A DNA stretch of 64,000 nt, taken from assembly GCF_016127315.1 (NCBI RefSeq), contig NZ_CP065997.1, positions 5,270,001-5,334,000 on the forward strand, written 5' to 3'. The DNA comes from Achromobacter deleyi (lineage in GTDB: Bacteria; Pseudomonadota; Gammaproteobacteria; Burkholderiales; Burkholderiaceae_B). The notes beneath the pieces are model-generated. The model saw only the letters and a list, made by a program, of their open reading frames with translations, had not been told where the DNA came from and made no database searches. Made by a program: the position numbers and the translations under genes. Each line of letters opens with the position of its first letter. Positions within the stretch are counted from its first letter, which is position 1. Of the stretch, positions 10,732 through 52,302 are shown in pieces.

Positions 10732-11517
10732 TCAGTAACGCAGTCGCGCGTCCCTCCCCGCCGCGGCGGCCTGGGCCAGCGCGCGGGTGATGATGCTGGT
10801 GGACACGTTGGCGAAATAGCGCGCGCCCCAGGCGCCGTACTTCTCTTCGTCGGCCGGCGTCAGCGCCACGATGCCGGCGCACTTGCCCGCCGCCACGATG
10901 GCCCCGAGGCCCTGCTCGATGGCCTGCTGCACCGGCGCGGCATTCCAGTCGCTGCCGTAGCCCATCGCGTGCGCCAGGTCATTGGGGCCGATGAACACCG
11001 CGTCCACGCCGTCGACGGCGGCGATCTCGCCGGCCGCGGCAATGGCTTGCGGCGTCTCGACCATCGCGATCAGCGCCACGCCGTCATTGCTGCGTTGCGT
11101 ATGCCCTGCCCCGCCGAATGCGCCATAGCCGGCCGCGCGGGTGCTGAAGGCGCTGCCGCGCCGGCCCAGCGGCGGATAACGCATCTGGTCGGCCAGGCGT
11201 CTCGCCTGGGCGGCGCTTTCCACCATCGGCACCTGCACGGCGCTGGCGCCCATGTCCAGGATCCGCGGCAGATCGTGCTCGAAGCAGCGCACCACGGGGG
11301 CGATGCCGGCGGCACGGGCGGCGCGCAACATGTGTTCGGTGGTGTCGAGGTCGGCGCTGCCGTGCTCGTTGTCCAGGATGATGAAGTCGAAACCGGCGTA
11401 GGCGCACATTTCGACCACGGCCGGGCTCGGCAGGCCGTTGAACAGGCCGCGCACCGGACCGCCGCCGCGCAGCATCGCGGGCAGGTCGCCATTGAGGGGA
11501 TAGCAGGGTTCATTCAT
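10732..11517 (-). CDS. HpcH/HpaI-type class II aldolase
   Basis: The 261-residue protein matches the HpaI/GarL aldolase layout: His52 in DNEHG as general base, Arg77 for pyruvate binding, and the metal ligands Glu154 (MVETPQA) and Asp180 (IGPNDLA). Such enzymes cleave 4-hydroxy-2-oxo acids to pyruvate and an aldehyde using a divalent metal. It is the last gene of a five-gene operon with a HisD-family dehydrogenase, SDR, LacI regulator and Bug protein, and it starts 35 bp after the Bug gene. An aldol-cleavage step fits an end point of that catabolic route. The substrate chain length is not evident. Confidence 0.88.
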   Translation of the reverse strand: MNEPCYPLNGDLPAMLRGGGPVRGLFNGLPSPAVVEMCAYAGFDFIILDNEHGSADLDTTEHMLRAARAAGIAPVVRCFEHDLPRILDMGASAVQVPMVESAAQARRLADQMRYPPLGRRGSAFSTRAAGYGAFGGAGHTQRSNDGVALIAMVETPQAIAAAGEIAAVDGVDAVFIGPNDLAHAMGYGSDWNAAPVQQAIEQGLGAIVAAGKCAGIVALTPADEEKYGAWGARYFANVSTSIITRALAQAAAAGRDARLRY

Positions 11518-37562: not shown

Positions 37563-38765
37563 ATGAAAGAAGCACGCAACGCCCGCCCCGGGCTCCATTT
37601 CGCGACCCGGGCCATCCACCACGGCTACGATCCCGCCAACCACCAGGGCGCGGTGACCCCGCCGGTCTTCATGACCTCGACCTACGCGTTCGAGTCGACC
37701 GCCGATTTCGAGGCGGTGTTTTCCGGCGACAGCGACCGCTGCGTCTACGGCCGCCAGCAGAACCCCACCCAGCAGCTGCTGGAAACGCGGCTGGCGGCGC
37801 TGGAAGGCGGACAGGCCGCGCTCGTCACGGCGTCGGGGATGGGCGCGATCGCCTCGACCCTGCTGACCTTGCTGTCGGCCGGGGACGAGATCGCGGTGCA
37901 CCACACCATCTACAACACCGCCAGCGCGCTGATGAACGAAGGCCTGCCGCGCTTCGGCATCAAGGTGGTGCGTGGCGACCTGAGCACGCCGCAAGGCACC
38001 GCGGCCGCCATCGGGCCGTCGACCCGGCTGGTGTATTTCGAGACTCCGATCAATCCGTCCGCCGAGGTGCTGGACATTGCCCGCATCAGCGCCGCCGCGC
38101 AGCAGGTCGGCGCGCGCGTGATCGTCGATTCGACTTTCGCCTCGCCGGCGCTGCAACGACCGCTGGAACTGGGTGCGGACCTGGTCATCCATTCGCTGAC
38201 CAAATACCTGAACGGCCATGGCGACGTGCTGGGCGGCGCCGTCATCGGCGACCGCGAGACGATCGAGGCGATCCGCGCGGCGGGCACCAAGTACCTGACC
38301 GGCGCGACGCCATCGCCCATGTCGTGTTTCCTGGTGCTGCGCGGCCTGAAGACGCTGGCGCTGCGCATGCGGCAACACAGCGACAACGCCTTGGCCGTGG
38401 CGGAGATGCTGCGGGAACATCCGGCGGTGGCCAAGGTCACCTACCCCTTCCTGGCGGATTTTCCGGACCGCGAGATCGCGCGGCGGCAGATGTCGGCGGG
38501 CAGCGGCATGGTGTCGTTCGAACTCAAGGCCGGATTCGACGGCGTGGCGCCCCTGATGGACCGGCTGCGCGTCATCTCGCGCGGCATCAGCCTGGGCGAC
38601 ACCGATTCGCTGATCTACCACACGGCCGGCATGATCCGCGCAAGGCAACGGGTCAGCCCGGGATTGCGGCTGAGTCCCGGCGTGACGCCGGAACTGGTGC
38701 GCCTGTCGGTCGGGCTGGAGGACGCCCGCGACCTGATCGACGATCTGCGCCAGGCCCTGGCATGA
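37563..38765 (+). CDS. Cys/Met metabolism PLP-dependent enzyme (gamma-lyase/synthase family)
   Basis: The 400-residue protein has the family signature: Tyr62 and Arg64 (VYGRQQNPT), Tyr117, Asp189 and the PLP lysine Lys214 in SLTKYLNGHGD. It resembles methionine gamma-lyase or cystathionine gamma-lyase, but the residue matching Cys116 of P. putida methionine gamma-lyase is a Thr (YNT, 117-119), so the substrate is open. With an amino-acid binding protein just upstream and a MocR regulator downstream it likely degrades an imported sulfur or gamma-substituted amino acid in the cytoplasm. Confidence 0.88.
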   Translation: MKEARNARPGLHFATRAIHHGYDPANHQGAVTPPVFMTSTYAFESTADFEAVFSGDSDRCVYGRQQNPTQQLLETRLAALEGGQAALVTASGMGAIASTLLTLLSAGDEIAVHHTIYNTASALMNEGLPRFGIKVVRGDLSTPQGTAAAIGPSTRLVYFETPINPSAEVLDIARISAAAQQVGARVIVDSTFASPALQRPLELGADLVIHSLTKYLNGHGDVLGGAVIGDRETIEAIRAAGTKYLTGATPSPMSCFLVLRGLKTLALRMRQHSDNALAVAEMLREHPAVAKVTYPFLADFPDREIARRQMSAGSGMVSFELKAGFDGVAPLMDRLRVISRGISLGDTDSLIYHTAGMIRARQRVSPGLRLSPGVTPELVRLSVGLEDARDLIDDLRQALA

Positions 38766-38828
38766 CCCTGGTCCGGCCGGCCCCGCGGCCGGTAATATCG
38801 GCAGTGGCAGCCATCGTCCGACCCATCC

Positions 38829-40322
38829 ATGCCCCGCACCGCAAACCGCATCGAACTTCCCGTCCTCGCGCCCCTTGACCGGGGCGCGGGGCGGCTCGGC
38901 CAGCAACTGGCGCAACAGCTGCGCGACGCCATCCGCGGCGGCGCGCTGCGGCCGGGCGATCCGCTGCCTGCCACCCGCCATCTGGCGGCAGCGCTGAAGG
39001 TGGCGCGCGGCACCGTGGTCGAGGCCTTCGAGCTGCTGGTGGCCGAAGGCTGGCTGGCGTCGAAGGCCGGCGCGGGCACGACGGTGGCGCGGCCGCCGCC
39101 CGCGGATCCGCCCGCCGCATCCGCGGGCGCCGCCGGTTTCGTGCGACCGCTGCCGGCCGCCGCCGCGCGCTACGCCGCCGTCGCCGCGGCGCTGTATCCC
39201 TTGCCGGCCGCGCCCTTCGCCATTTCGGTGCCAACCGGGCCGGTCGCGCCCGACGACTCCTGGCGCAAGCTCAGCAACCGCGTGCGCGCCAGCCGTGCCG
39301 CCGCGCCCGCCGGCTATGCCGATCCGCAAGGGCTGCGGCCTTTGCGCGCCGCCATTGCCGACTACGTGCGCAAGGCCCGCTCGGTCGCCTGCGAGGCGGA
39401 CCAGGTCGTCATCACCGCCGGCACGCAGCAGGGCCTGCACCTGGCCAGCGCCGTGCTGCTGGGAGAGAACGACCAGGCCTGGGTCGAGGATCCGGCCTAC
39501 GTCGGCCTGACCGCGCTGCTGGAAGGCGGCGGCCGCGCCAGCCGCATCGTGCGGGTGCCGGTGGATGCCGAGGGCCTGCGCGTGGAGGAAGGCGTGCGGC
39601 GCGCGCCGCATGCCCGCGTCGCGTTCGTGACGCCGTCGCACCAGTACCCGCTCGGCATGCCGATGAGCATGGCGCGCCGCGAGGCCCTGCTGGCCTGGGC
39701 CCGCGCCCGCAATGCCTGGATCGTCGAGGACGACTACGACAGCGAACTGCGCTATGCCGGCCACCCCTACCCCGCCCTGCAGGGCATGGGCGGCCGTCAG
39801 GTGATCTACCTGGGCACGTTCAGCAAGATCCTGTTCCCGTCGCTGCGCATCGGCTACCTGATCGCGCCAGCCGATCTGGTGGCGGCATTCCTTGGAGCCC
39901 GCATCACGCTGGACCGGCATCCGCCCACCGCCGACCAGCACGTGCTGGCCGCGTTCATCGCCGAGGGCCTGCTCGACCGCCACGTGCGGCGCATCCGCCA
40001 GGCCTATTCCGACAGCCGGCTGGCGTTGATCGATTTGCTGCGCACGCACCTGCCGGCGGAACTGGCCCAGGTCCAGCCGATCGACCAGGGCGTGCACCTG
40101 CTGGTGTGGCTGCGTGCGGCCATCGACGACGTCGCCCTGGCGCGCCGCGCCGCCGACGCGGGCGTCGCGGTGCGGCCGCTGTCGGTCACCTACGGCGAGC
40201 AAGGCGGCCTGCGCCGGTCCGGCCTGATCCTCGGTTTCGGCGGCTATCCGGTCGACAGGATGACCCTGGCCGCGCAACGCCTGGCCAGGCTGATCCGCGA
40301 CGCTGCGCGCCCGCGAGACTGA
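38829..40322 (+). CDS. MocR/GabR-type regulator (GntR HTH fused to aminotransferase domain)
   Basis: The 497-residue protein has a GntR winged helix at about 22-90 (LRDAIRGGALRPGDPLPATRHLAAALKVARGTVVEAFELL, cited by GDPLPATRHLAAAL) and a fold-type I aminotransferase-like domain with the PLP lysine Lys333 in GTFSKILFP and the Asp pair in VEDDYDSE. MocR proteins sense amino acids or vitamin B6 through PLP. It is co-directional, 63 bp after the gamma-lyase gene, and probably activates the binding protein and lyase genes, whose leader carries the repeat at 36439-36454. Confidence 0.93.
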   Translation: MPRTANRIELPVLAPLDRGAGRLGQQLAQQLRDAIRGGALRPGDPLPATRHLAAALKVARGTVVEAFELLVAEGWLASKAGAGTTVARPPPADPPAASAGAAGFVRPLPAAAARYAAVAAALYPLPAAPFAISVPTGPVAPDDSWRKLSNRVRASRAAAPAGYADPQGLRPLRAAIADYVRKARSVACEADQVVITAGTQQGLHLASAVLLGENDQAWVEDPAYVGLTALLEGGGRASRIVRVPVDAEGLRVEEGVRRAPHARVAFVTPSHQYPLGMPMSMARREALLAWARARNAWIVEDDYDSELRYAGHPYPALQGMGGRQVIYLGTFSKILFPSLRIGYLIAPADLVAAFLGARITLDRHPPTADQHVLAAFIAEGLLDRHVRRIRQAYSDSRLALIDLLRTHLPAELAQVQPIDQGVHLLVWLRAAIDDVALARRAADAGVAVRPLSVTYGEQGGLRRSGLILGFGGYPVDRMTLAAQRLARLIRDAARPRD

Positions 40323-40375: not shown

Positions 40376-41356
40376 TCAGTCGATCGCCGCGCCCGCCGTC
40401 TTCACGACCTTGCCCAGCCGGGTGTATTCCTCGGCGCCGAACTCGGCCAGCGACTGGCGCGTGGTCGGCGACGGGATCGCGCCGCGCGATTCCAGCGCCT
40501 GCTTGACTTCGGGACGCGCCAGCGCGCGGCCCACGGCGGCGTTGAGCTTGTCCAGGATGGCGGTCGGCGTGCCCTTGGGCGCATACAGCCCGTCCCAGGC
40601 AAAGAACTCGTAGCCCTTGACGCCGGCCTCGCTCATGGTCGGGATATCCGGATTCGAGCCTACCCGCTGCGGCGTGGTGACGCCCAGGGCCCGCAGCTTG
40701 CCCGCCGCGACCTGACCCGACACGTTCGGCATCACGTCGATCAGCAGCGAGATACGGCCGCCCAGCAGGTCCGTCATCGCCGCGCTGCCGCCCTTGTAGG
40801 GAATGTGCATGATCTTGACGCCGGCCATCTGGTTCAGCAGCTCACAGGCCAGGTGCGACGAGGTGCCGTTGCCGGCCGAGCCACAGGTCAGTTCGCCCGG
40901 GTGCGACTTGGCGTAGTCCAGCAGCTGCGCCAGCGACTTGAAGCGGTCGTCTGTGGCGTTGACCACCAGCGCCGCGGCGATCACGGTGAAGCGCGAGATC
41001 GGCTCGAAGTCGCCTGGCGCATAGCCGGGCGACTTGTACAGCCAGTGGTTGGTGGCCTGGGTGCCGTTGGTGCCATAGGACAGCGTGTAGCCGTCAGGGT
41101 TGGCGCGCGCGGCGATGGAGGTGCCGATGTTGCCGCCCGCGCCCGGGCGGTTCTCGACGATGATGGACTGGCCGAGCTCGCGCGACAACGGTTCGGCCAC
41201 CAGTCGCGCCAGCGTGTCGCCACCGCCGCCGGCGGCGAACGGGACGACCAGCGTGATGGCGTGGGTGGGCCAGTCGGCGCCTTGCGCCAGGGCCGGGCCG
41301 GCCGCCAGTGACAGGCACGCGGCCGCCAGGCGGATCGAGGTCTTGAAGGGGGTCAT
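40376..41356 (-). CDS. Bug family (TctC) periplasmic binding protein
   Basis: The 326-residue protein has a signal peptide (cleavage near PALA-QGADWP) and the Bug motifs WPTHAITLVVPFAAGGGGDTL and IIVENRPGAGG. The ATG at 41356 follows AAGGAGACAAACC. It is the last gene of the aromatic-acid operon, 100 bp after the hydratase, on the same strand. It is therefore the likely binding protein for the aromatic acid handled by the operon, though an own promoter cannot be excluded. Confidence 0.92.
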   Translation of the reverse strand: MTPFKTSIRLAAACLSLAAGPALAQGADWPTHAITLVVPFAAGGGGDTLARLVAEPLSRELGQSIIVENRPGAGGNIGTSIAARANPDGYTLSYGTNGTQATNHWLYKSPGYAPGDFEPISRFTVIAAALVVNATDDRFKSLAQLLDYAKSHPGELTCGSAGNGTSSHLACELLNQMAGVKIMHIPYKGGSAAMTDLLGGRISLLIDVMPNVSGQVAAGKLRALGVTTPQRVGSNPDIPTMSEAGVKGYEFFAWDGLYAPKGTPTAILDKLNAAVGRALARPEVKQALESRGAIPSPTTRQSLAEFGAEEYTRLGKVVKTAGAAID

Positions 41357-41456
41357 GGTTTGTCTCCTTGGGGGTGCGGGACGCGCGTCCGCTGGTTTTG
41401 GTGTATCGGGCGCGCGGAATGAAAAATGGGTCTGGGGCGGTCTCCGGCCGGCCGGG

Positions 41457-42257
41457 TCACACAAAGCGGCAGCTGACCGCGCCAAGCGGGCCATAGTCCA
41501 CGTGGAACGTGTCGCCCTGCTGGGCGAACACGGGCCGCGTGAACGAACCGCTCAGGATGATCTGGCCGGGCTCGAGCGCCACGTCGTAGCCGGCCAGCTT
41601 GTTGGCCAGCCACACCACGCCGTTGGCGGGATGATTGAGCACGCCGGCCGCCAGGCCGGTCTCCTCGATCACCGCGTTGCGCGACATCATCGCGCCGACC
41701 CAGCGCAGGTCGACCGCGTCAACGCGCACCGGCCGGCCGCCCATCACCACGCCGGCGTTGGCGGCGTTGTCGGCGATGGTGTCGAAGACCTTGCGCGGCC
41801 GCTTGCTGTCGGGGTCGATCTGGTGCGAACGCGCGTCGATGATCTCGAGCGCGGGGATCACGTAGCGCACCGCGTCCAGCACGTCGAACAGCGTCACGCC
41901 GGGGCCCTCGAGGCGGCGCTCCAGGATGAAGGCCAGCTCGACCTCGACGCGCGGCACGATGAAGCGGTCGCGGGGGATCTCGGCGCCGTCCTCGAACAGC
42001 ATGTCGTCCAGCAAGGCGCCGTAATCCGGCTCGTCGATCTGCGACGACAGCTGCATGGCGCGCGAGGTCAGGCCGATCTTGTGGCCGACCAGCCGGCGGC
42101 CGCCGGCGATCTTGGCCGCCACCCACTCGCGCTGGATGGCGTAGGCGTCGGCGATGGTGATGTCGGGATGTTCCAGCGACAGCTGGCGCACCTGGGTACG
42201 GCTGCTTTCCGCCTGGTCCAGTCGCTGGGCCAGCCTCTTGATGGTCGCGGCATCCAT
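41457..42257 (-). CDS. 2-oxopent-4-enoate hydratase family protein (HpaH/MhpD-like)
   Basis: The 266-residue protein matches the HpaH/MhpD/XylJ family in length and blocks: [32 protein letters not shown] (metal-binding Glu residues), ALEIIDARS and a C-terminal [31 protein letters not shown]. Members add water to 2-hydroxy-2,4-dienoates after meta-cleavage, or decarboxylate 4-oxalocrotonate. The ATG at 42257 follows AAGGAAAT and is preferred to one at 42278. Its place in the operon suggests it acts on the ring-opened product. Confidence 0.88.
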
Positions 42258-42306
42258 GGGATTTCCTTGGGGTGTCATGGGATTTTCCGGCAGGGTTTCG
42301 GCAATG

Positions 42307-42714
42307 TCATTCGGGCGGCAGATGGCGCCGGCTGCGCTTTTCCGCCAGCAGCCAGTCCTGGCCGCTGGCGCTCAGCCGGTCCTGGCAGTCGCGGATGGCG
42401 ACCAGGCGCGGCGCCCCGCCCTGCACCTGCGGATCGCTGTCGTAGGCGGTCAGGAAATAGCCCACCGCGGCCTGCGAGCCACTGTGTTCGAGCACACGCA
42501 GGTTGGTGATGACATGACAGGTGGTGCGCTGCGGCGGGCGCGCCTCGAGAGCCGCCAGCACTTCGCGCGGCCCGGTCAGCAACTGGCCCTGGCGCAGCCA
42601 GGTGCCGTCCGGCGCCATCAGCGCGGCGGCGGCCTTGTGGCGCCGGGTATCCAGCGCATGGAAGAAGGCCAGCACGACCGCCTCGCAGGCGGCCTTGACG
42701 TGTTCGGTCTGCAT
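42307..42714 (-). CDS. SnoaL-like/NTF2-fold small protein
   Basis: The 135-residue protein looks like an NTF2-fold domain: [28 protein letters not shown] with the usual helix-strand arrangement, [23 protein letters not shown] and a C-terminal AEKRSRR. Such proteins can be small isomerases, dehydratases or oxygenase beta-like subunits. The ATG at 42714 has GGAG six bases upstream, better than ATGs at 42729 or 42726. It lies between the reductase and hydratase genes of the aromatic operon. Its role is unknown; it could be an extra beta-like or a ring-isomerase subunit. Confidence 0.75.
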
Positions 42715-42732
42715 TCGGTTCTCCATCATGGT

Positions 42733-43959
42733 TCAGCCGATCCGGGCGCTGGACAGCGGCGCGTCGGCACGCGCCAGTTGCGCCGGGTCCACCTGGGTGC
42801 CCTGGGCGATCCATTGGCGCAGCTGGCGCAGGTCGCGCGCCGCGTTCACCGCCACGGCGCCGACGACGCGGCCGCCCTCGTCCAGCGCCACCGACAGCAG
42901 CGCCCGCGCATCCGCCTGGGGCCGCAGCACTTCACATTCGGCCCGCGCCGGAAAACCGGCGATCTGCACCATGGCGTCGTATTGTTCCGACCAGACCGCG
43001 CCGCTGGGCAGGTACGGCTGGCCGGCATCCAGCGCCGACAGCGCCGCCGCCGCGCCCTGGTCCTGCGCGTTCTGCCAGGATTCGAGGCGGATGGGGCCGC
43101 CGCCGGCGGGCGCCGCCACCGCCACGTCGCCCGCCGCCAGGACGTCCGGCGCCGAGGTGCGGCAGTATTCGTCGACCAGCACGCCGCGTTCGCAGGCGAT
43201 GCCGGCCTCGCGCGCCAGGGCGTCGTTGGCCTGCATGCCGACCCCCAACACCACCGCGTCGGCCTCCAGGCGGCCGCCGTCGGCCAGCTCGGCCACGCAG
43301 CCGCCCTCGGGCCGCGCATGCACCGCGCGCAGGCTGGCATTCAGGCGCAGCGTCACCCCTTGCGCGGCGTGCAGCGCCGCCAGGTGGGCCGAGACGCCGG
43401 GCGGCACGCTGCGGGCGCACAGGCGCGACGCCTGCTCCAGCACCGTGGTGGCGCAGCCCGCCTGGCGCGCGGTGGCGGCCACTTCCAGGCCGATCCAGCC
43501 GCCGCCGGCGATGACGATGCGACGGCCGGGGCCCAGGCGGGCGCGCAGGCGCAAGGCATCGTCGCGGGTCCGCAGCACATGGACGGCGCGGCCGTCGGCG
43601 CCGGGCAAGGCCGGCACGATGGGCCGGCCGCCGGTGCACAGGATCAGCTTGCCGTAGTCGAGCACGGCGCCATCGGAAGTCTCGACCTGATGGCGCTCGG
43701 GCCACAGCCGGGTTGCCGCGACGCCGGGCCGGAACGTGATGTCCAGCTCGGCCAGCTTTTCGCGCGAGAACAGCTCGGTGCTTTCGGGCGCGGCCTGGCC
43801 GCCCAGCACCGCCTTGCTCAAGGGCGGACGCTCGTAGGGCGCGTGCGGCTCGTCGCCCAGCAGCACGATGCGGCCGGCGTAGCCGTGGCCGCGCAACGTC
43901 GCCGCGGCCCAGCCGCCCGCCTGCCCCGCGCCGACGATGACGATGGCGCCCGCGCTCAC
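42733..43959 (-). CDS. FAD-dependent ferredoxin reductase of the Rieske oxygenase (AndAa-like)
   Basis: The 408-residue protein has two dinucleotide-binding motifs, GAGQAG (10-15, FAD) and GGGWIG (152-157, NADH), and an oxygenase-reductase C-terminal domain with VAVNAARDLRQLRQWI. It takes electrons from NADH to the Rieske ferredoxin encoded just upstream. It has no Fe-S domain, unlike NagAa, which puts this system with three-component AndA/BphA4-type chains. The GTG start overlaps the ferredoxin stop as GTGA. Confidence 0.92.
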   Translation of the reverse strand: MSAGAIVIVGAGQAGGWAAATLRGHGYAGRIVLLGDEPHAPYERPPLSKAVLGGQAAPESTELFSREKLAELDITFRPGVAATRLWPERHQVETSDGAVLDYGKLILCTGGRPIVPALPGADGRAVHVLRTRDDALRLRARLGPGRRIVIAGGGWIGLEVAATARQAGCATTVLEQASRLCARSVPPGVSAHLAALHAAQGVTLRLNASLRAVHARPEGGCVAELADGGRLEADAVVLGVGMQANDALAREAGIACERGVLVDEYCRTSAPDVLAAGDVAVAAPAGGGPIRLESWQNAQDQGAAAALSALDAGQPYLPSGAVWSEQYDAMVQIAGFPARAECEVLRPQADARALLSVALDEGGRVVGAVAVNAARDLRQLRQWIAQGTQVDPAQLARADAPLSSARIG

Positions 43960-44276
43960 GCCGCCTCCGGGCTCAGGTAGATGGTGCCGGCCTCGACCCG
44001 CACCGCGTAGCGCCGCAGGTCGGTGGTGACCGGCGGGCATTGCGGCTTGCCGCTGCGGATGTCGAACACGCCCTGGTGCAACGGGCATTCGATGGTGCCG
44101 TCTTCCATATAGCCGTCGGCCAGGCTGGCGTTGCCGTGCGGGCAGCGGTCCTGGGTGGCGCAGATCTCGCCCTGCAGGTCGTACAGGCAGACCGCTTCGC
44201 CCTCCAGCGCGACGCGCAGCGTGCCGGTGTCGGGGGAAATGTCGCCCACCTGGGCGACCGGAATCCAGGTGTCCAT
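43956..44276 (-). CDS. Rieske-type ferredoxin (AndAb-like)
   Basis: The 106-residue protein is a soluble Rieske ferredoxin with the [2Fe-2S] ligands Cys45, His47 (CPHGNA) and Cys64, His67 (CPLHQG). It ferries electrons from the FAD reductase to the oxygenase alpha subunit. It starts 2 bp after the alpha-subunit stop and overlaps the reductase start, so the four oxygenase components are tightly coupled. Confidence 0.94.
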   Translation of the reverse strand: MDTWIPVAQVGDISPDTGTLRVALEGEAVCLYDLQGEICATQDRCPHGNASLADGYMEDGTIECPLHQGVFDIRSGKPQCPPVTTDLRRYAVRVEAGTIYLSPEAA

Positions 44277-44278
44277 GA

Positions 44279-45547
44279 TCACAGCCCCATCGCGTTGCGG
44301 TAGTAGTCGTAGAACGAGCGGATCAGCACCTCGGTCACCATGTAGTCGGCCGGCTCGGTGTCGCGGCCGCCCATCTCGACGATGCCGCGCGCCTCGGGAT
44401 AGCCGGTGACGCCGATCTGCACCTGGTTCAGCATCTCGCTGTCGTCCATCGAGACGAAGCCGGCCGGCCCCAGCAGGTTGGCGTGCTTCAGGCGCAGGCG
44501 GGTCATTTCCTCGTCGTCGTCCTCGTAGCCGTAGTAGGTGAACACCAGTTCGTGCTCGGTCGGGCTGCGCGGGATCACGTGGCGGGTCTTGAGCGAATTG
44601 GCCTGGATGCCGAACTGGGCGGCGGGAAAGACCCAGGCGCCGCCGACCCGGCCGCGGTTGAATTCGGCGCGCGGGGTCACGGTTTCCAGGTCGAGCAGCT
44701 CCAGGTCGTCGCGGAAGCGGCTCATTTCGCTGGTGGCCTCGGTCTTCTTCTTGCCCTCGTTGTGCGACACCATCACGCTGTGCGCGCCGCCGCCGGTGGG
44801 AATGCACTCGGACTTCGAATCCGCGCGCCACAGGCCGAAGGTGATGTAGAAGGTATGCAGCAAGGTAGCGTGGTACGGATCCTTCAGGTTCTCCAGGTAC
44901 ATCTTCCAGTTGCTGGGGATCAGCTGGCGGCTGTAGCCCAGCAGCTTGAGCTTCTTGCCCGGCAGCATGTGGTCGATCTCGGCCAGCACCTCGGCGCCGC
45001 AGTATTCCTCGAAACTGGGCGCATCGTCGGCGAACGTCGCCCAGATCGAGCCGCCGCGATTGACGCTGCGCAGTTTGCGGATGCCGTTCTGCTTCGGATC
45101 GAAATCGCGCGGCATGCCGCCCTTGCCCATGGCGCCGCGGCGGAACGGCACGCCCTGCAGGTTGCCGTCCAGGTCGTAGTTCCACTGGTGGTACGGGCAG
45201 GTGAAGTCGGTCACCTGCCCGGTGTTCTGCCAGCAGATCTGCGCGCCGCGGTGGGCGCAGCGGTTCTCCAGCACGTTGATCTCGCCGCTTTCGGTGCGCA
45301 CCATGACGACCGGGCGGTTGCCGATCCAGTTGCGCTTGTAGCAGCCGGTCTCGGGCACTTCGCACTCCAGGCCGACGTAGTTCCAGGTGCGGCCGCCGAA
45401 GAACACGTCCATTTCCTTCTGGAAGATGGCCGGATCGGTGTAGACCCAGTTGGGAATGCGCGTGTAGCCCTCCTTGGGCCAGCGGCGCTCGAGATGGATG
45501 GGGGCCGCGGCGGGAGCGTCCAGCACGGCGGAATCGGAACAGGTCAT
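44279..45547 (-). CDS. Ring-hydroxylating oxygenase alpha subunit (AndAc/NagG-like)
   Basis: The 422-residue protein has a Rieske domain with Cys97, His99, Cys117, His120 (CAHRG and CPYHQW) and a catalytic domain with Asn220, Asp223, His226 and His231 (KDPYHATLLHTF), the mononuclear iron site. Length and blocks such as LQGVPFRRG and GGMPRDFD match the AndAc (anthranilate 1,2-dioxygenase) and NagG (salicylate 5-hydroxylase) group. It hydroxylates an aromatic acid with O2. The exact substrate, and whether mono- or dihydroxylation occurs, cannot be read; both relatives act on ortho-substituted benzoates. Confidence 0.93.
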   Translation of the reverse strand: MTCSDSAVLDAPAAAPIHLERRWPKEGYTRIPNWVYTDPAIFQKEMDVFFGGRTWNYVGLECEVPETGCYKRNWIGNRPVVMVRTESGEINVLENRCAHRGAQICWQNTGQVTDFTCPYHQWNYDLDGNLQGVPFRRGAMGKGGMPRDFDPKQNGIRKLRSVNRGGSIWATFADDAPSFEEYCGAEVLAEIDHMLPGKKLKLLGYSRQLIPSNWKMYLENLKDPYHATLLHTFYITFGLWRADSKSECIPTGGGAHSVMVSHNEGKKKTEATSEMSRFRDDLELLDLETVTPRAEFNRGRVGGAWVFPAAQFGIQANSLKTRHVIPRSPTEHELVFTYYGYEDDDEEMTRLRLKHANLLGPAGFVSMDDSEMLNQVQIGVTGYPEARGIVEMGGRDTEPADYMVTEVLIRSFYDYYRNAMGL

Positions 45548-45569
45548 GGCGGGTTTCCTGGCAGCGGGA

Positions 45570-46061
45570 TCAGAGGGGAACGATGAGCGAGGTGCGCACG
45601 CGGTAGTTGTCGTAGACGCAGTCGCGGCGGGTCAGCGCCAGCCCTTGCGGCGTCAGGCGCAGTTCGTCCAGGTAGCGGCCCACCATGTTCAGCGTGGGCT
45701 CGCGGTCGGACAGCGACTCCATCACGGCGAAGTTGGCCTGGGCCACGATGCGATCGCCCTGCGCCTCGATGACGCGCACGCCGCTGATGAAGTGGCGCAG
45801 CGAACGCGGCTCGAACATGGTGGTTTCGCGCAGCGCGGTGACGCGGTCGCGCAGCATGTTCTTGTTCATGCAATAGATCAGGCCGAGCGGCAGGCCGGCG
45901 TCGTGGTTCTCGCGCGACAGCACGCGGTAGTGGCAGTCCTCGGTGAAGAAGTCGGGCCACTCCTCCAGCCGGTCTTCGTCCAGGCAATAGGCGTAGTCAT
46001 CGTGGAAGTCACGCAGGCGGGCGCGCAGCGAGGTGTCGTCGGGCAATTGGATCTGGGTCAT
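45570..46061 (-). CDS. Ring-hydroxylating oxygenase beta subunit (AndAd/NagH-like)
   Basis: The 163-residue protein is the small NTF2-fold structural subunit (161 residues in NagH), with FHDDYAYCLDEDRLEEWPDFFTEDCHYRVLSRENHDAGLPLGLIYCMNKNMLRDRV (cited by DEDRLEEWPDFF) and a C-terminal DNYRVRTSLIVPL. It completes an alpha3beta3 oxygenase with the gene 22 bp downstream. AAAATCCC before the ATG is a poor ribosome binding site but GGAAAA is near. Confidence 0.92.
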   Translation of the reverse strand: MTQIQLPDDTSLRARLRDFHDDYAYCLDEDRLEEWPDFFTEDCHYRVLSRENHDAGLPLGLIYCMNKNMLRDRVTALRETTMFEPRSLRHFISGVRVIEAQGDRIVAQANFAVMESLSDREPTLNMVGRYLDELRLTPQGLALTRRDCVYDNYRVRTSLIVPL

Positions 46062-46089
46062 GGGATTTTCCGGGATGCGGCGGGCGCGC

Positions 46090-47190
46090 TCAGGACGCGG
46101 CGGCCAGTTGCGCCAGGTTGCTTTCGAAGCCGCTCTGGCTGCCGAGCGCCAGGATCGGCTCCTGCATGCGCTCCTGCCAGATCAGCGATTCCATGGCGAT
46201 CTGCAAGGGGTGGTCCTGCACCGTCAGGGCCGAGGTGGTCTCGGTGCCCGAGTGATGCGAATGCATGGCCCAGCCGGGCGCCGACAGGATCAGGTCGCCG
46301 GCCTTCCAGTCCAGCCGCACGCCGTTGACCTTGCTGTAGCCGTTGCCGCGCAGGTAGTAGTTGATGGCCGACGAGCTGTGGCGATGCGGCACGTGGTGGT
46401 TGTCCGGCGGCGACGACGAGATCGTGGCGAAGAAGCTGTGGGTGGTGCCGATGCGGCGCTCGGTGGCCGGGTTGTACAGCACGAACAGGCGGCGGCCGTT
46501 GTAGCCGCGCGCCATGTCCTCGACGCTCGGCAGGTGGCGCGAGACGGCCGCCCAGGGCCAGTGCAGCGCCTTGGATTCGAGCACGTCGATGTCGATCAGC
46601 CACTCGTAGCCCATCAGCCAGGCGCCTTCCGGCGTGATCTGCTCGCGCAGCGCCAGGTCGCGGGCCCGCGCCGCCTCGGGCGAGCGGCTGGGCGCCGGCC
46701 GGGTGTTGGCGTCGGCCGGCGGCACGTCGCCCTCGAACTCCTCGACATAATGGATCTCCAGCTTCTCCAGCAGCGGCGCGTTGGAGTACGACAGCCGCAC
46801 CCAGGGCGTCTTGCCTTCATTGCGGTACGAATGCACCTGCATCGCCGGCGTGTTCCACACGTCCCAGCGGCCCACCGGGATGTCGCGGCCGGCCACCGTG
46901 GCCACGCCCTCCCCGCTGATACAGATCTCCAGCATGTTGGAGTTCTTGCGCAGGTTGAAGGTGCGTTCGCCCGGGTTGACGACGTTGATGGTGACGTCCG
47001 TGCCGGGGGCCAGGCCCAGGCCGGGCGCGGTCGCCTGCGGATGCGCGATGAGCGAAGCGCGGCGGCCGTTGGCGGGGCGCGGCGCGTCGATCAGGCGGGC
47101 GATCTCCAGGTCGATCTCCTCCTTGGGGATCACGATCGATGGCCATTTGTTCTGCTCGCGGGGCGCCGCCCCGCTGACGTCGATGAACAT
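46090..47190 (-). CDS. Bicupin dioxygenase-like protein (gentisate/salicylate dioxygenase group)
   Basis: The 366-residue bicupin resembles gentisate 1,2-dioxygenase-type enzymes that cleave an aromatic ring with Fe(II). A full metal-ligand set is in the C-terminal cupin (HHVPHRH with His269 and His271, plus His310 or His312 in MHSHH), while the N-terminal cupin lacks HxH. In canonical gentisate dioxygenases the N-terminal cupin binds iron, so this protein is unusual. The ATG at 47190 follows GGAGACAGAC. It lies between the OCD-like gene (67 bp) and the oxygenase genes, which suggests that it opens the hydroxylated ring. The substrate is not known. Confidence 0.82.
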   Translation of the reverse strand: MFIDVSGAAPREQNKWPSIVIPKEEIDLEIARLIDAPRPANGRRASLIAHPQATAPGLGLAPGTDVTINVVNPGERTFNLRKNSNMLEICISGEGVATVAGRDIPVGRWDVWNTPAMQVHSYRNEGKTPWVRLSYSNAPLLEKLEIHYVEEFEGDVPPADANTRPAPSRSPEAARARDLALREQITPEGAWLMGYEWLIDIDVLESKALHWPWAAVSRHLPSVEDMARGYNGRRLFVLYNPATERRIGTTHSFFATISSSPPDNHHVPHRHSSSAINYYLRGNGYSKVNGVRLDWKAGDLILSAPGWAMHSHHSGTETTSALTVQDHPLQIAMESLIWQERMQEPILALGSQSGFESNLAQLAAAS

Positions 47191-47257
47191 GTCTGTCTCC
47201 TGTGGCCGGCGGCGGTTTCGCGCCGGCGTCATGATGATTTGAAGGGGGTGATTGAAA

Positions 47258-48256
47258 TCAGGGCTGCGCCAGCAGCAGGTTCTCGCGGGTCTGCGGCGGC
47301 AAGGCGACGCCCAGGCCGTGGTCGCGGGCGTGTTCGTACGCCACCTGCGCCATCGCCAGGTCCGACAGGCCCATGCCCATGCCCTTGAACAGCGTCAGCC
47401 GCGCGTCCGCCGCGCGCGTCTCGCCGCGCGCCAGCAGCTCGCCCAGCACCGCCACGCCGTCCCAGGGCGCGCCGTCCGCGCCATAGCGCTCGCGCAATTC
47501 GCGCGAGCCGCGCCGGGCGTTTTCCAGGTCGTCGACCACCACGCGGTCGGCGCGCTCGAACACGTCCTGGGCGAATTCGGCCTTGGCCGGCAGGATCGCG
47601 CCCACCGCGTTCAGGTGGCGGCAATCGGCCAGCAGCGCCGCGTCGACGAACGGCTCGACGGCGCGCGTGATCAGCGTCACGATCTCGGCGCCGGCCAGCG
47701 CGTGTTCCAGCGTGGGCGATTCCTCGATGGCGAAGGCGTACTTGCCGGCCACGGCCTCGACGAAGGCGCGGCGTTTTTCCGGGGTCGGGCTGTAGATCCG
47801 CACGCGTTGCAGCTTGCGCACCGCGGCCAGCGCCGCCAGTTGCGTCACCGCCTGCGGCCCGGTGCCGATCAGCGCGGCCCGCGCGGCGGCCTCGGGCGCC
47901 AGGGCCCGGGTGGCCACGCCGCTGATGGCGGCCGTGCGCAGCATGCCCAGCGCGCGCGCCTCGATCACTGCCCGCAACCGACCGGTGTCGGCGTCGAACA
48001 GGCTGAACAGCGACCCGCCGCCCGCCTTGGTGTGGACCCAGGTCTTGAATCCGGCGTAGCCGCCAGGGCCGGGCTGCACCGAGCCCAATGCATGCATCGA
48101 GCTGCCGTCGCCCCAGGTGGCCAGCGCCTTGGGCACGTTGCGCGCGCCCTCCTTCGCCTGCGCCACCAGCATGCGCTGCAGCGCGTCGATGGCGCGCGGG
48201 ATGGTCAACGCCGCCACCACGTCTTTTTCGGTGAGATACCGCAATGCCTCGGTCAT
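47258..48256 (-). CDS. Ornithine cyclodeaminase/mu-crystallin family protein
   Basis: The 332-residue protein has the OCD/mu-crystallin layout: dimerisation region with GFKTWVHTKAGGGSLFSLFDADTGRLRAVIEA, the NAD motif ALIGTGPQA (about 128-136), and AVGAILPAKAEF. Family members reduce imines, deaminate or dehydrogenate amino acids with NAD(P). In this operon it may act on an amino- or imino-substituted ring-cleavage product, which would suit an aminobenzoate pathway; that is inference. The ATG at 48256 follows AAGGACACAGGC and lies 16 bp after the FAH gene. Confidence 0.9.
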   Translation of the reverse strand: MTEALRYLTEKDVVAALTIPRAIDALQRMLVAQAKEGARNVPKALATWGDGSSMHALGSVQPGPGGYAGFKTWVHTKAGGGSLFSLFDADTGRLRAVIEARALGMLRTAAISGVATRALAPEAAARAALIGTGPQAVTQLAALAAVRKLQRVRIYSPTPEKRRAFVEAVAGKYAFAIEESPTLEHALAGAEIVTLITRAVEPFVDAALLADCRHLNAVGAILPAKAEFAQDVFERADRVVVDDLENARRGSRELRERYGADGAPWDGVAVLGELLARGETRAADARLTLFKGMGMGLSDLAMAQVAYEHARDHGLGVALPPQTRENLLLAQP

Positions 48257-48272
48257 GCCTGTGTCCTTCGTG

Positions 48273-49124
48273 TCAGTGGGGGTGGACGGGTTCATCCGCC
48301 ACCGTGTTGCGCAGCGTGCCGACGCCCGGCACTTCGATCTCCAGCGTGTCGCCGACCGCCAGGAAGCGCGGCGGCTGGCGGCTGGAACCGACGCCTTCCG
48401 GCGTGCCGGTGGCGATCACGTCGCCGGGCGCCAGCGGCGTGAAGGCGCTGATGTAGGCAATCAGTTCGGGAATCGGGAAGATCAGGTCGGCCAGTTCGCC
48501 CTGCTGCACGGTCTCGCCGTTCAGGCGCGTCTCGATCCGCAGGCCCGCGGGGTCGCCGATCTCGTCGGCGGTGACCAGCCAGGGGCCGATCGCGCCGCTG
48601 CGCTCGAAGTTCTTGCCAGGCGTGACCTGGGCGTTGTGCTTCTGGAAGTCACGCACCGAGTTCTCGGCCATACAGGTGTAGCCGGCCACGTGGGCCAGGG
48701 CGTCCCGCGCCGCGATGTGGCGCCCTGCCCGGCCGATCACCACGGCCAGTTCGCCTTCGTAGTCGAAGCGGTCGGAGGCGCGCGGCTTCCAGACCGGCGC
48801 GCCGTGCCCGACGAAACTGTCGGGGTAGCGGGCGAACAGCGAGGGATGGCGCGGCAGCTCGCGGCCGGCCTCGGCCACGTGGCGGCCGTAGTTCAGGCCG
48901 ACGCAGAGGATCTTGCGCGGCGCCGGCACCGGCGGCAGCCATTGCAGGCCGGCCAGCGCAATGCGGGGGCCGTCGTGGCGCGCGGCCGCTTGCGCGATCT
49001 CGGCCACGCCCGCCGCCAGGGCGGTGGCCAGGTCGGGCCAGTACCGCGTCAACGGCACGACTTCGGCGTCGCGCAGCACGCCCCAGGCCGGCTGGCCCGC
49101 GGATTCGAAGCTGATCAGCTTCAT
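48273..49124 (-). CDS. Fumarylacetoacetate hydrolase-fold protein
   Basis: The 283-residue protein has the FAH fold marks: ILCVGLNYGRHVAEAG, the metal-binding DYEGELAVVIG, GYTCMAENSVRDFQKH, KNFERSGAIGPWLVTADEI and a C-terminal GDVIATGTPEGVG. Such proteins hydrolyse fumarylpyruvate, acylpyruvates or oxaloacetate-like acids, or isomerise ring-cleavage products. It is the first gene of the aromatic operon, with AGGAGACAAG before the ATG, and lies directly next to the GntR operator array. In gentisate-type pathways this fold supplies the last step (NagK). Confidence 0.92.
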   Translation of the reverse strand: MKLISFESAGQPAWGVLRDAEVVPLTRYWPDLATALAAGVAEIAQAAARHDGPRIALAGLQWLPPVPAPRKILCVGLNYGRHVAEAGRELPRHPSLFARYPDSFVGHGAPVWKPRASDRFDYEGELAVVIGRAGRHIAARDALAHVAGYTCMAENSVRDFQKHNAQVTPGKNFERSGAIGPWLVTADEIGDPAGLRIETRLNGETVQQGELADLIFPIPELIAYISAFTPLAPGDVIATGTPEGVGSSRQPPRFLAVGDTLEIEVPGVGTLRNTVADEPVHPH

Positions 49125-49155
49125 CTTGTCTCCTGTCCTGTGGGCGGTCCTTCTG

Positions 49156-49290
49156 GCATGCAATTGAGTGACGCATTGCATGCATTCAGTGGCTTTTAAG
49201 TGCCTTGACCGCTGTTTTTCCGAATTATTGCATGCAATTTTGATAAATCGCAAGGTCGTATTGTTTTTTTTATGCGCGATTGCATGCAAT
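49156..49290. promoter_or_regulatory. GntR operator array with four sites
   Basis: Four copies of a palindrome with core GCATGC lie between the divergent aromatic operon and GntR gene. Sites are: GGCATGCAATT at 49155-49165; ATTGCATGCATT at 49175-49186; ATTGCATGCAAT at 49227-49238; and ATTGCATGCAAT at 49279-49290. Core centres are 22, 52 and 52 bp apart, near multiples of the helical turn, so bound dimers would lie on one face of the DNA. This supports binding by the FCD-type GntR protein and possibly looping. Confidence 0.85.
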
Positions 49291-49343
49291 TTTGTAGGTA
49301 CACTGGAGGCCCCTTTCAGACCCGCTCCCGCCGACGCTCCGCC

Positions 49344-50078
49344 ATGGCCGCTCAGATCGACAAAGTGATTTCCGAACTCCGGGACATGGTGCTTTCCGGC
49401 GCCCTGCAACCCGGCGAACGCGTAGTGGAACTGCAGTTCTCGGCGCGCCTGGGCGTGTCGCGCACGCCGCTGCGCATCGCGCTGACCGAGTTGGAAAAGG
49501 AAGGCCTGCTGGAACGGCTGCCCTCGCGTGGCTTTCGCGTGCGGGCGTTCACCGTCGACGAGATCGGCGACGCGGTGGAAGTGCGTGGCGTGCTGGAAGG
49601 CATGGCGGCGCGGCTGCTGGCCGAGCGCGGCGCCAGCGCCGACGTGCTGGAACAGTTGTCGCAGGCGGTGGAGGAAGGCCGCGCCCTGCTGGCGCCGGCG
49701 CGGCGCGACCCCAAGGCCACAGTGGATGCGCGCGCCTGGGGGCAGATCAACCGCCGCTTCCACGAGATCCTGTGCGAAGCGGCCGGCAACCGCGCCCTGC
49801 TGTCGGCGCTGGAACACAACAACAAGACGCCGCTGGCCGGCCCGGCCGCGCTGACGCTGCCATCCACGCCGTCGCAGCTGGAGACGCCGTTCGTGCTACG
49901 GGCGCAATCGGATCACGAGGACCTGCTGCGGGCGATCACGCGCCGCGAGGCCGCGCGCGCCGAGAACCTGATGCGCGAACACGCCTACCGCAGCCGCGAG
50001 AACAAGCGCGTGCTGCTGGAATCCCTGCGGGGGGGCGTGGCGGGGCTGGCGCAGCCGGCCGACAGCGCGGCGGCCTAG
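49344..50078 (+). CDS. GntR family regulator, FadR/VanR (FCD) subfamily
   Basis: The 244-residue protein has a GntR winged helix at about 5-70 (LRDMVLSGALQPGERVVELQFSARLGVSRTPLRIALTELEKEGLL, cited by GVSRTPLRIALTEL) and an FCD ligand domain with the Asp, His ligand pattern for a metal (NRRFHEILC, and a C-terminal DHEDLLRAITRREAARAENLMREH). FCD regulators bind small carboxylates. The ATG at 49344 is chosen since the frame upstream runs through the operator array. It most likely represses the aromatic operon and itself until the aromatic acid or a product binds. Confidence 0.93.
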   Translation: MAAQIDKVISELRDMVLSGALQPGERVVELQFSARLGVSRTPLRIALTELEKEGLLERLPSRGFRVRAFTVDEIGDAVEVRGVLEGMAARLLAERGASADVLEQLSQAVEEGRALLAPARRDPKATVDARAWGQINRRFHEILCEAAGNRALLSALEHNNKTPLAGPAALTLPSTPSQLETPFVLRAQSDHEDLLRAITRREAARAENLMREHAYRSRENKRVLLESLRGGVAGLAQPADSAAA

Positions 50079-50191: not shown

Positions 50192-51801
<1,610 letters not shown>

Positions 51802-51814
51802 TAGGAGCCTTTCC

Positions 51815-52186
51815 ATGAGCCAAGCCATCCAGCGCCTGCCCAGCAGCCTGCCGTTCCCGTTCTCGCGCGCCGTGAAGGCCGGCGGCTTCCTGTTCCTGTC
51901 GGGCCAGGTGCCGATGAGCGCCGCGGGTGAGGTGGTGCGCGGCGACATCCAGACCCAGACCCGCGCCGCCTGCGAGCGCATCGTCGAAAGCCTGGCGGCC
52001 GGCGGCGCGCGCCTGGACCAGGTGGTCAAGGCCACCGTGTGGCTGTCGGACATGAGCCATTTCGCCGGCTTCAACGAGGTCTACAAGGAATTCTTCGGCG
52101 CGGCGCTACCGGTGCGTTCGACGGTGGCGTCGGCGCTGGCGCTGAACGTCGACGTCGAGATCGAAGTGCAGGCGTATATCGGGTAG
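51815..52186 (+). CDS. RidA family 2-iminoacid deaminase
   Basis: The 123-residue protein has the Rid fold with the key Arg101 (LPVRSTVAS) and features such as LFLSGQVPMS and VKATVWLSDMSHFAGFNEVYKEFF. RidA proteins hydrolyse reactive imines made by PLP enzymes or FAD dehydrogenases. AGGAG precedes the ATG. It is 13 bp after the D-amino-acid dehydrogenase gene, whose product is an imine, so a direct pairing is likely. Confidence 0.92.
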   Translation: MSQAIQRLPSSLPFPFSRAVKAGGFLFLSGQVPMSAAGEVVRGDIQTQTRAACERIVESLAAGGARLDQVVKATVWLSDMSHFAGFNEVYKEFFGAALPVRSTVASALALNVDVEIEVQAYIG

Positions 52187-52191
52187 AACCC

Positions 52192-52232
52192 AAGCGGGCA
52201 GGCCCCAAGCAGACAAGACAGAAGCGGGCAGG
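52192..52232 (+). repeat. Direct repeat AAGCGGGCAGG in the ridA-M81 gap
   Basis: The 11-mer AAGCGGGCAGG occurs at 52192-52202 and 52222-52232, 30 bp apart, in the 116-bp gap before the M81 peptidase gene. It may be chance or a leader element. Confidence 0.4.
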
Positions 52233-52302
52233 ACTGAAGCGTCGGCACGGAGTCCCGGACGCGAACAGACGAACGGACAACCATTCAGAACGGAGCGATC
52301 GC

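Follow-up and report, generated by a model that had tools for sequence, protein, structure and literature searches.

The lower homoprotocatechuate pathway is carried out by HpaG, HpaH, HpaI, and Sad, which act as OPET decarboxylase, 2-oxohept-ene-1,7-dioate (OHED) hydratase, HHED aldolase, and succinic semialdehyde dehydrogenase (SSADH), respectively (PMC3053370, in the part dealing with these enzymes). In characterised two-cupin proteins (bicupins), iron is typically held in the N-terminal barrel, with some two-iron exceptions (excerpts of PMC10306065). For salicylate dioxygenase, roles have been assigned to the iron ligands and substrate-contact residues; Arg127 is described as a strictly conserved residue of the gentisate dioxygenase family whose change abolishes salicylate dioxygenase activity (PMC11264262, in part). 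Hydroxylation followed by direct cupin cleavage is also found in the mab cluster of Comamonas QT12, whose route has been proposed to run through fumarylpyruvate (PMC9584955, in its available portion). The subject of this analysis is an operon of Achromobacter deleyi that shares features with each of these systems. It lies in a stretch of 64,000 nucleotides (the window), positions 5,270,001-5,334,000 of a 6,987,272-base single-contig genome. Its ten genes, all on the minus strand and without internal stops, encode an FAH-family enzyme, an ornithine cyclodeaminase (OCD) homologue, a bicupin, the beta and alpha subunits of a ring-hydroxylating oxygenase, a Rieske ferredoxin, an FAD-dependent ferredoxin reductase, a SnoaL-like protein, a hydratase (HpaH), and a Bug-type solute-binding protein.

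It is proposed, with a probability put at about 0.47, that this operon serves the catabolism of an aromatic acid by hydroxylation, ring cleavage by the bicupin, reduction by the OCD homologue, and the successive action of the FAH protein, HpaH, and HpaI, ending in pyruvate and succinate semialdehyde. A first-pass annotation, made from the sequence alone, had judged that the enzyme set matches no textbook route, and we agree; its suggestion that a hydroxylated ring is cleaved directly, without a catechol step, is supported in the form of an ortho-hydroxy acid opened by the bicupin. HpaH, which is the clue to the lower pathway, was overlooked in it. A wider claim, made more tentatively still, is that these genes represent a new central aromatic pathway found in more than one bacterial phylum. 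Such a pathway would combine a new cupin subfamily (iron in the second cupin, Arg changed to Asn) with reduction of a carbon-carbon double bond by an OCD-family protein, and would join HpaH and HpaI after entry enzymes that can be exchanged (Rieske, DdmC-like, and perhaps luciferase-like). If so, this would be the first carbon-carbon double-bond reduction in the OCD family, an extension from C=N to C=C; it would provide a reductive bridge from direct ring cleavage to the lower homoprotocatechuate route; and it would give a function to a recurring, unnamed gene pair, that of bicupin and OCD homologue. No description of the pathway was found in open-licence full text, subscription papers lying outside the search.

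The bicupin and its oxygenase

Comparison of aligned residues indicates that the bicupin is a separate subfamily in which an iron site has been retained along with the hold on an ortho-hydroxy carboxylate. All 84 aligned bicupins, those of the window and of other Achromobacter among them, carry H269, H271, and H310 in the C-terminal cupin, and no HxH is conserved in the N-terminal cupin of the same alignment. These histidines align with H119, H121, and H160 of salicylate dioxygenase, and R83 and H162 of that enzyme correspond to bicupin R233 and H312 (81/84 each); it is from the conservation of these five residues that retention of the iron site and of the carboxylate grip is deduced. The protein resembles the gentisate/salicylate dioxygenase class in its two-cupin fold over almost the full length, its three-histidine site, and the positions of the carboxylate-contacting Arg83 and His162, but differs in that the iron site is C-terminal rather than N-terminal, that Arg127 has become Asn, and that the Gln108 position holds Ser, Ala, or Thr in nearly all bicupins. 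The 17 PDB chains that best match an AlphaFold2 model of the protein (mean predicted local distance difference test score 75.4, predicted TM-score 0.77) are gentisate/salicylate 1,2-dioxygenases (13) and the Escherichia coli homologue 2d40 (4), with 314-363 alignment columns, a best E value of 2.0e-21 (3bu7), and identities of up to 22%.

The best NCBIfam model for the bicupin is the 5-aminosalicylate dioxygenase MabB (NF049978), at 67.8 bits against a cut-off of 650, and the protein scores 60.9 on the gentisate 1,2-dioxygenase model TIGR02272 (cut-off 442.1). Both identities were rejected, the scores falling far under the cut-offs. As a positive control, a true gentisate dioxygenase encoded elsewhere in the genome, next to an FAH gene, scores 573.9 on TIGR02272. 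In several cases, the bicupins of relatives are named "gentisate 1,2-dioxygenase" or merely "cupin domain-containing protein"; a protein named as from Achromobacter xylosoxidans is 97% identical to the window's bicupin. In the genus, 26 of 41 genomes have a bicupin relative, the window's own genome being counted here and in the next two figures; in the family the figure is 52 of 268, and for a sample drawn evenly from the class it is 2 of 369. A plasmid search returned 32 records, all under 60% identity, nine of which cover at least 80% of the bicupin.

The first-pass annotation had matched the oxygenase to the three-component anthranilate 1,2-dioxygenase AndA, an assignment that the tests made do not support. 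AndAc is still the best NCBIfam model for the alpha subunit, but the score (379.3 bits) does not reach the cut-off of 750; likewise, the FAD reductase scores 313.7 on the AndAa model (cut-off 650) and falls below the HcaD cut-off as well, and no protein of the genome exceeds the AntA cut-off. The nearest solved structure to alpha is salicylate 5-hydroxylase (7c8z, 404.8 bits), and the next nearest with a named substrate is terephthalate dioxygenase (7q04, 301.4 bits). The true NagG of the same genome (locus L100; L numbers denote the loci analysed) scores 751.8 bits to 7c8z and 379.5 on the AndAc model. Since alpha reaches only about half of that 7c8z score and lies on a different branch, identity as salicylate 5-hydroxylase was rejected too. 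Alpha shares 44.0% identity with the genome's NagG and 37.5-39.1% with three AndAc proteins. The alpha phylogeny that had been suggested as a check was computed with 46 rows, including 25 bicupin-linked alpha subunits from the 52 that had been collected, and sets the window's alpha apart from AndAc and NagG alike. In this tree, 24 of the 25 bicupin-linked subunits form one weakly supported group (92/48); the exception is L075, and two changes of the label are required on the tree. The three AndAc proteins that exceed their cut-off form their own branch (100/100), and NagG falls on another. The window's oxygenase thus has its broad family in common with NagGH and AndA, on separate branches.

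Reduction of the fission product and the lower pathway

In the proposed route, the Bug protein would help to take up the aromatic acid, and the three-component Rieske oxygenase would add a hydroxyl group beside the ring carboxylate. The bicupin would then cleave the ring between the carbon bearing the carboxylate and that bearing the hydroxyl, in the manner of salicylate and gentisate 1,2-dioxygenases, as its conserved residues and modelled fold suggest. From a ring at the level of salicylate, the cleavage product is 2-oxohepta-3,5-dienedioate. The OCD homologue, with NAD(P)H, would reduce this product to 2-hydroxyhepta-2,4-dienedioate: by analogy with its imine-reducing relatives, hydride would be delivered to the carbon by the far carboxylate, and the electrons would pass to the 2-oxo group to give a dienol, which would be the type of substrate used by HpaG-type isomerases. 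The FAH protein would convert the dienol to 2-oxohept-3-enedioate, by isomerisation or, for a ring with two carboxylates, by decarboxylation. This would be hydrated by HpaH, and an HpaI encoded elsewhere in the genome would yield pyruvate and succinate semialdehyde, the latter to be oxidised to succinate.

Reduction of the ring-fission product by the OCD homologue is proposed from the electron balance, the gene pairing, and elimination. Salicylate plus O2 gives C7H6O5, and the addition of 2H and H2O gives pyruvate plus succinate semialdehyde exactly, whereas gentisate would need four hydrogens, that is, two reductions, to reach the same products. Thus, a fission product at the salicylate level needs exactly one two-electron reduction, and a reductase is wanted in the pathway.

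Judging from its residues, the OCD homologue looks like a reductase rather than a deaminase. Although it scores far over the cut-off of its Pfam family (Table 1), 13 NCBIfam models matched it and none exceeded its cut-off. Invariant in 61 aligned homologues are K56, H68, K84, W86, R120, and I234 (numbering of frame 47258-48295). I234 aligns with the Asp of the GAD motif of alanine dehydrogenase, and H68 lies next to an Arg; the alanine dehydrogenase residues at these aligned positions we take to bind substrate. The cyclic-imine reductases P2CR and thiomorpholine-carboxylate dehydrogenase also lack the Asp, which is present in just one of three other OCD-family proteins of the genome. Because imine reductases are without it too, the missing Asp counts only against an activity of the deaminase or alanine dehydrogenase type. 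Ornithine cyclodeaminase or alanine dehydrogenase proper was rejected on the lack of any NCBIfam model over its cut-off and the Ile in place of the GAD Asp. Consequently, the protein is like the OCD imine reductases and alanine dehydrogenase in its NAD-binding domain, with Lys and Arg positions in common with alanine dehydrogenase, and unlike them in its own invariant set, its Ile for the alanine dehydrogenase Asp, and its tie to a ring-cleaving dioxygenase. It had earlier been suggested that the OCD protein treats an imine or amine; a reductase demanded by the electron balance explains it better.

Elimination draws on a compact run. In L146, the order is MFS-FAH-SnoaL-OCD-HpaH-bicupin-HpaI, with a divergent LysR gene. 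In this run, the OCD homologue is the sole member of a known oxidoreductase family besides the bicupin, and neither an SDR hit nor a homologue of the window's oxygenase occurs in the 20-kb stretch. L151 is a similar run and also has no homologue of the window's oxygenase in its stretch. The SnoaL-like proteins of the window and of L151 have a weak match, under its cut-off, to a model named as an oxidoreductase (TIGR02246, "SgcJ/EcaC family oxidoreductase"; 23.4 bits for the window's protein, against 33.95).

The gene pairing was followed through related loci, gene presence being called by tblastn with thresholds of our own. A scan of genome contigs, with the best 80 of 220 related stretches kept, gave 79 distinct loci; 17 from Achromobacter were excluded to limit redundancy, leaving 62. 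A further 14 loci came from 19 stretches (20 of 61 places in family genomes) and one class-sample stretch, after six duplicates had been dropped. Both sources, restricted to loci of at least 13 kb, make up a set of 70, which retains some redundancy: two Achromobacter loci of a second type (L095 and L149), Noviherbaspirillum loci that are nearly identical, and three cases in which two stretches overlap or adjoin. Counts among the 62 loci are 43 for OCD, 38 for FAH, 34 for the oxygenase alpha subunit, 29 for SnoaL, 20 for HpaH, 17 for HpaI, and 13 for a DapA-family gene. The midpoints of the OCD and bicupin genes are at most 1.2 kb apart in 40 of the 43 loci that have both (exceptions L058, L063, and L077); of the 14 further loci, OCD occurs in 12, within 1.2 kb of the bicupin in 8 and at 2.0-2.7 kb in 4.

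The endpoint is indicated by the genes downstream. The window's HpaH exceeds the cut-off of its model (Table 1) and shares 76% identity with its counterpart in the canonical hpa cluster of the same genome (L096). That genome also encodes, outside the operon, an HpaI over its cut-off (396.8 against 368.8). Among relatives, the HpaI proteins of L057, L082, L146, and L151 exceed the cut-off, and those of L039 and L097 fall short of it; in L146, both HpaH (432.0) and HpaI (381.2) exceed theirs. The aldehyde dehydrogenases of three loci were scanned, and two are over the SSADH cut-off, one beside HpaI in L057 (861.6) and one eight bases after a DapA-family gene in L046 (841.2). Among the 70 loci, 25 have HpaH and/or HpaI only, 16 a DapA-family gene only, none both, and 29 neither (one-sided Fisher p 2.6e-4 for loci left ungrouped, that is, with kinship disregarded). 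When bicupins are grouped at 85% identity, the 45 groups divide into 16, 13, 0, and 16, respectively (p 9e-4). The exchange is also seen among clusters of the LysR type (L050 and L057 against L044 and L046). HpaH/HpaI and the DapA-family protein are apparently two interchangeable ways to one cleavage. Because HpaH/HpaI or a DapA-family protein together with SSADH is found downstream in relatives, the aldehyde released is most likely succinate semialdehyde, and the endpoint pyruvate and succinate semialdehyde by the lower homoprotocatechuate route. The likeness to that route consists of HpaH over its cut-off, HpaI over its cut-off in four relatives, and an HpaG-like FAH protein; the difference is that it is entered here by reduction from a cupin-cleaved ring, there by dehydrogenation from an extradiol-cleaved catechol. 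The FAH protein is nearest to sugar-acid and HpaG-type FAH enzymes and lies under every listed NCBIfam cut-off.

Several results count against this proposal. To our knowledge, no OCD-family enzyme reduces a carbon-carbon double bond, and other candidates for the reduction exist: an SDR gene lies just past the regulator in L151, and clusters of the LysR type also carry CurA-like and SDR reductases that could perform it. In the bicupin, the position of Arg127 is Asn277 in 84/84 sequences, and the root-mean-square deviations of the fold superpositions are large (6.7-10.6 A). The roles given to the FAH and SnoaL-like proteins are guesses. HpaI lies outside the window's operon, the best SSADH of its genome scores 789.2 (cut-off 828), and in L039 both HpaI (328.6) and SSADH (584.0 on TIGR01780, 561.7 on NF008415) are under their cut-offs. 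The four DapA-family proteins scanned have as their best model TIGR02313, a 2,4-dihydroxyhept-2-ene-1,7-dioate aldolase (L049 284.9, L095 293.8, L077 347.1, L046 311.2), but each scores below the cut-off of that model (396.7) and above that of ordinary DapA (206.15). Kinship is responsible for part of the HpaH/HpaI and DapA pattern, p rising to 0.07 and 0.28 with single linkage at 75% and 65% identity (30 and 18 groups, 1 and 2 of them mixed). In 18 of the 70 loci, the stretch contains no OCD gene; a lower-pathway gene is present in six of these 18. Of the 52 loci with OCD, 17 show none of the listed lower-pathway genes in the stretch. A number of the stretches are short, and the missing genes may be at other sites, like the HpaI gene of the window's genome. 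Finally, loci of the Binatia type carry, of the genes looked for, the bicupin alone.

In these Binatia-type and related loci (L064, L067, L068, L069, and L079), the bicupin stands with genes that by eye are esterase- or amidohydrolase-like, and the remaining pathway genes looked for are absent; the bicupin may serve another purpose there.

Other substrates, routes, and entry enzymes

One version of the proposed route starts from a ring with two carboxylates. Here, a phthalate-type diacid would be hydroxylated and cleaved to a C8 tricarboxylate, for example, 5-carboxymethyl-2-hydroxymuconate, and the FAH protein would be an HpaG-like decarboxylase. The formula agrees, as hydroxyphthalate plus O2 plus 2H is that of 5-carboxymethyl-2-hydroxymuconate; terephthalate dioxygenase is the next nearest named-substrate structure to alpha; and the second-best model for the FAH protein is the HpaG C-terminal domain (TIGR02303, 179.5 bits). 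However, that score is under the cut-off of 276.4, several OCD-bicupin-DapA loci, L095 included, show no FAH gene in the stretch, and the DdmC-like entry enzymes described below suggest simple methoxybenzoates. This version is unlikely.

In a second alternative, the ring is amino-substituted, as the first-pass annotation had it, and the OCD homologue reduces an imine after cleavage; 3-aminosalicylate, for instance, would give pyruvate and aspartate semialdehyde. The balance again calls for one reduction (aminosalicylate + O2 + 2H + H2O), the solved OCD-family relatives are named for imine or amino-acid reactions, and the two cyclic-imine reductases share the absence of the Asp. The best NCBIfam model of the bicupin is MabB, and the mab cluster, which acts on 3-aminobenzoate, resembles the operon in hydroxylation, direct cupin cleavage, and a further hydrolase, and also has a "deaminase" (PMC9584955, same portion); yet MabB is distant in sequence, as its score shows. 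Furthermore, no recognised deaminase besides the OCD-like gene is present in the window's operon or in the L146 and L151 runs, HpaH is close to the canonical OHED hydratase, and an SSADH over its cut-off stands by the aldolase in L057 and L046, so that the downstream genes of relatives indicate the nitrogen-free succinate semialdehyde. The amino-substituted substrate is accordingly regarded as doubtful.

An ordinary gentisate-type route, in which a maleylpyruvate-like product is hydrolysed by the FAH protein to pyruvate and a dicarboxylate and OCD, SnoaL, and HpaH are accessory, would suit the fold of the bicupin and the presence of maleylpyruvate hydrolase and a putative fumarylpyruvate hydrolase among the PDB relatives of the FAH protein. 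It is nonetheless quite improbable, as the genome has a true gentisate dioxygenase elsewhere, the bicupin scores far lower on that model, and the pairing with OCD and the HpaH/HpaI and DapA-type alternatives would be left unexplained. That the oxygenase is AndA, producing catechol, and the remaining operon unrelated can practically be set aside: AndAc is the best NCBIfam model for alpha, but the genome's own salicylate 5-hydroxylase scores equally on it, the AndAc branch is separate, and 34 of the 62 loci contain both the bicupin and the oxygenase genes.

Two further candidates were rejected. Dipicolinate degradation, of which there is an old report from Achromobacter, would give an imine, but HpaH, HpaI, and SSADH do not fit its carbon count, and nothing on it was found in open-licence full text. 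In riboflavin/lumichrome catabolism, the ring is cleaved by an extradiol enzyme (PMC12746152, in the portion on ring cleavage).

If the route is as proposed, the salicylate-level ring could be reached in more than one way. DdmC makes a salicylate from a 2-methoxybenzoate. A Rieske oxygenase like DdmC (dicamba O-demethylase) occurs instead of the three-component enzyme in L066 (279.3 bits) and L082 (266.6), directly before the bicupin gene in L082. Luciferase-type monooxygenases like SfnG/RutA lie near the bicupin in sphingomonads, Pseudonocardia, and Chelatococcus (L066, L077, and L072), and are possibly another entry enzyme. In Noviherbaspirillum and Paraburkholderia ferrariae, oxygenase-bicupin clusters of the GntR and LysR types lie side by side on one contig (L031/L057 and L034/L050); each pair of clusters seems to rely on a single HpaH/HpaI set, to which SSADH is added in Noviherbaspirillum.

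The window's genome has two further clusters of related content. L095 (genome 2598500-2618400; 8662-12426 within it) holds a second pair of OCD and bicupin genes, with a DapA-family aldolase. Its bicupin is 46% identical to the window's, a small protein is AhpD/CMD-like by eye without a Pfam or NCBIfam match, and oxygenase and FAH genes are not in the stretch. L097 (genome 4842000-4857000; 7174-11862 within it) encodes a Bug protein, RidA, a sulfomuconolactone-hydrolase-like amidohydrolase, an FAH protein 51% identical to the window's, an HpaH over its cut-off, and an HpaI-like aldolase; it may feed this lower pathway by another route.

Operon layout, regulator, and adjoining genes

As the first-pass annotation had described, the ten genes form an intact same-strand operon divergent from a GntR gene (Table 1). 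With the starts chosen, the gaps between them in the order of transcription are 16, 67, 28, 22, 2, -4, 3, 28, and 100 bases. The gene order is kept in Achromobacter and in several Bordetella and related loci, some without HpaH, and the arrangement is therefore not due to chance.

Table 1. Coordinates in the window of the operon genes, the divergent regulator, and the candidate operators
Feature	Position	Strand	Model and score
Bug/TctC-type periplasmic solute-binding protein, uptake	40376..41356	-	PF03401 235 bits
HpaH, OHED hydratase	41457..42278	-	TIGR02312 456.2 bits (cut-off 351.5)
SnoaL-like protein, possibly isomerase	42307..42729	-	PF13577 34.1 bits
FAD-dependent ferredoxin reductase of oxygenase	42733..43959	-	PF07992 + PF14759
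Rieske ferredoxin of oxygenase	43956..44276	-	PF00355 64.4 bits
Rieske ring-hydroxylating oxygenase, alpha	44279..45547	-	PF00355 + PF00848
Ring-hydroxylating oxygenase, beta	45570..46061	-	PF00866 63.1 bits
Bicupin, predicted ring-cleaving dioxygenase, iron site H269/H271/H310 in C-terminal cupin	46090..47190	-	
OCD/mu-crystallin family, proposed NAD(P)-dependent reductase	47258..48256 (frame extends to 48295)	-	PF02423 137 bits (cut-off 24)
FAH-family enzyme, proposed isomerase (or decarboxylase) before HpaH	48273..49124	-	PF01557 237.3 bits
Operator-like palindrome, one mismatch to TTGCATGCAA	49176..49185		
Operator-like palindrome TTGCATGCAA	49228..49237		
Operator-like palindrome TTGCATGCAA	49280..49289		
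GntR/FCD regulator	49272..50078	+	PF00392 54.5 bits, PF07729 66.6 bits

Upstream of the FAH gene lie three palindromes, each 52 bases from the next, which, on their placement here and in relatives, are probably operators of the GntR/FCD regulator; through them, the protein would probably control the operon. The listed regulator frame begins upstream of the last palindrome, and the true start is probably a later ATG. With at most one mismatch to TTGCATGCAA, the window has four matches, all inside the gap between the GntR and FAH genes; four is an unremarkable number (mean of 1.9 in shuffled sequence, 15 of 100 shuffles reaching four), but the clustering is unusual. In a survey of the 27 loci of 33 with a GntR match, the motif occurs between regulator and operon in 26, L039 having none, and 116 of 130 hits fall in that position (overlapping hits counted separately). 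Three copies about 52 bases apart are found in 19 of the 27.

Just past the Bug gene, a Cys/Met-metabolism PLP enzyme is encoded beside a MocR-type regulator with GntR and aminotransferase domains (37563-40322, +). Beyond the GntR gene, an apparently separate adjoining operon (50659-53748, +) encodes a DAO-type FAD oxidoreductase, a RidA-family protein, and an M81/MlrC-type metallopeptidase. Elsewhere in the window, a weak HpaI-family aldolase match lies by a Bug-like gene (10771-11475, -; 171.2 bits, under the cut-off of 368.8).

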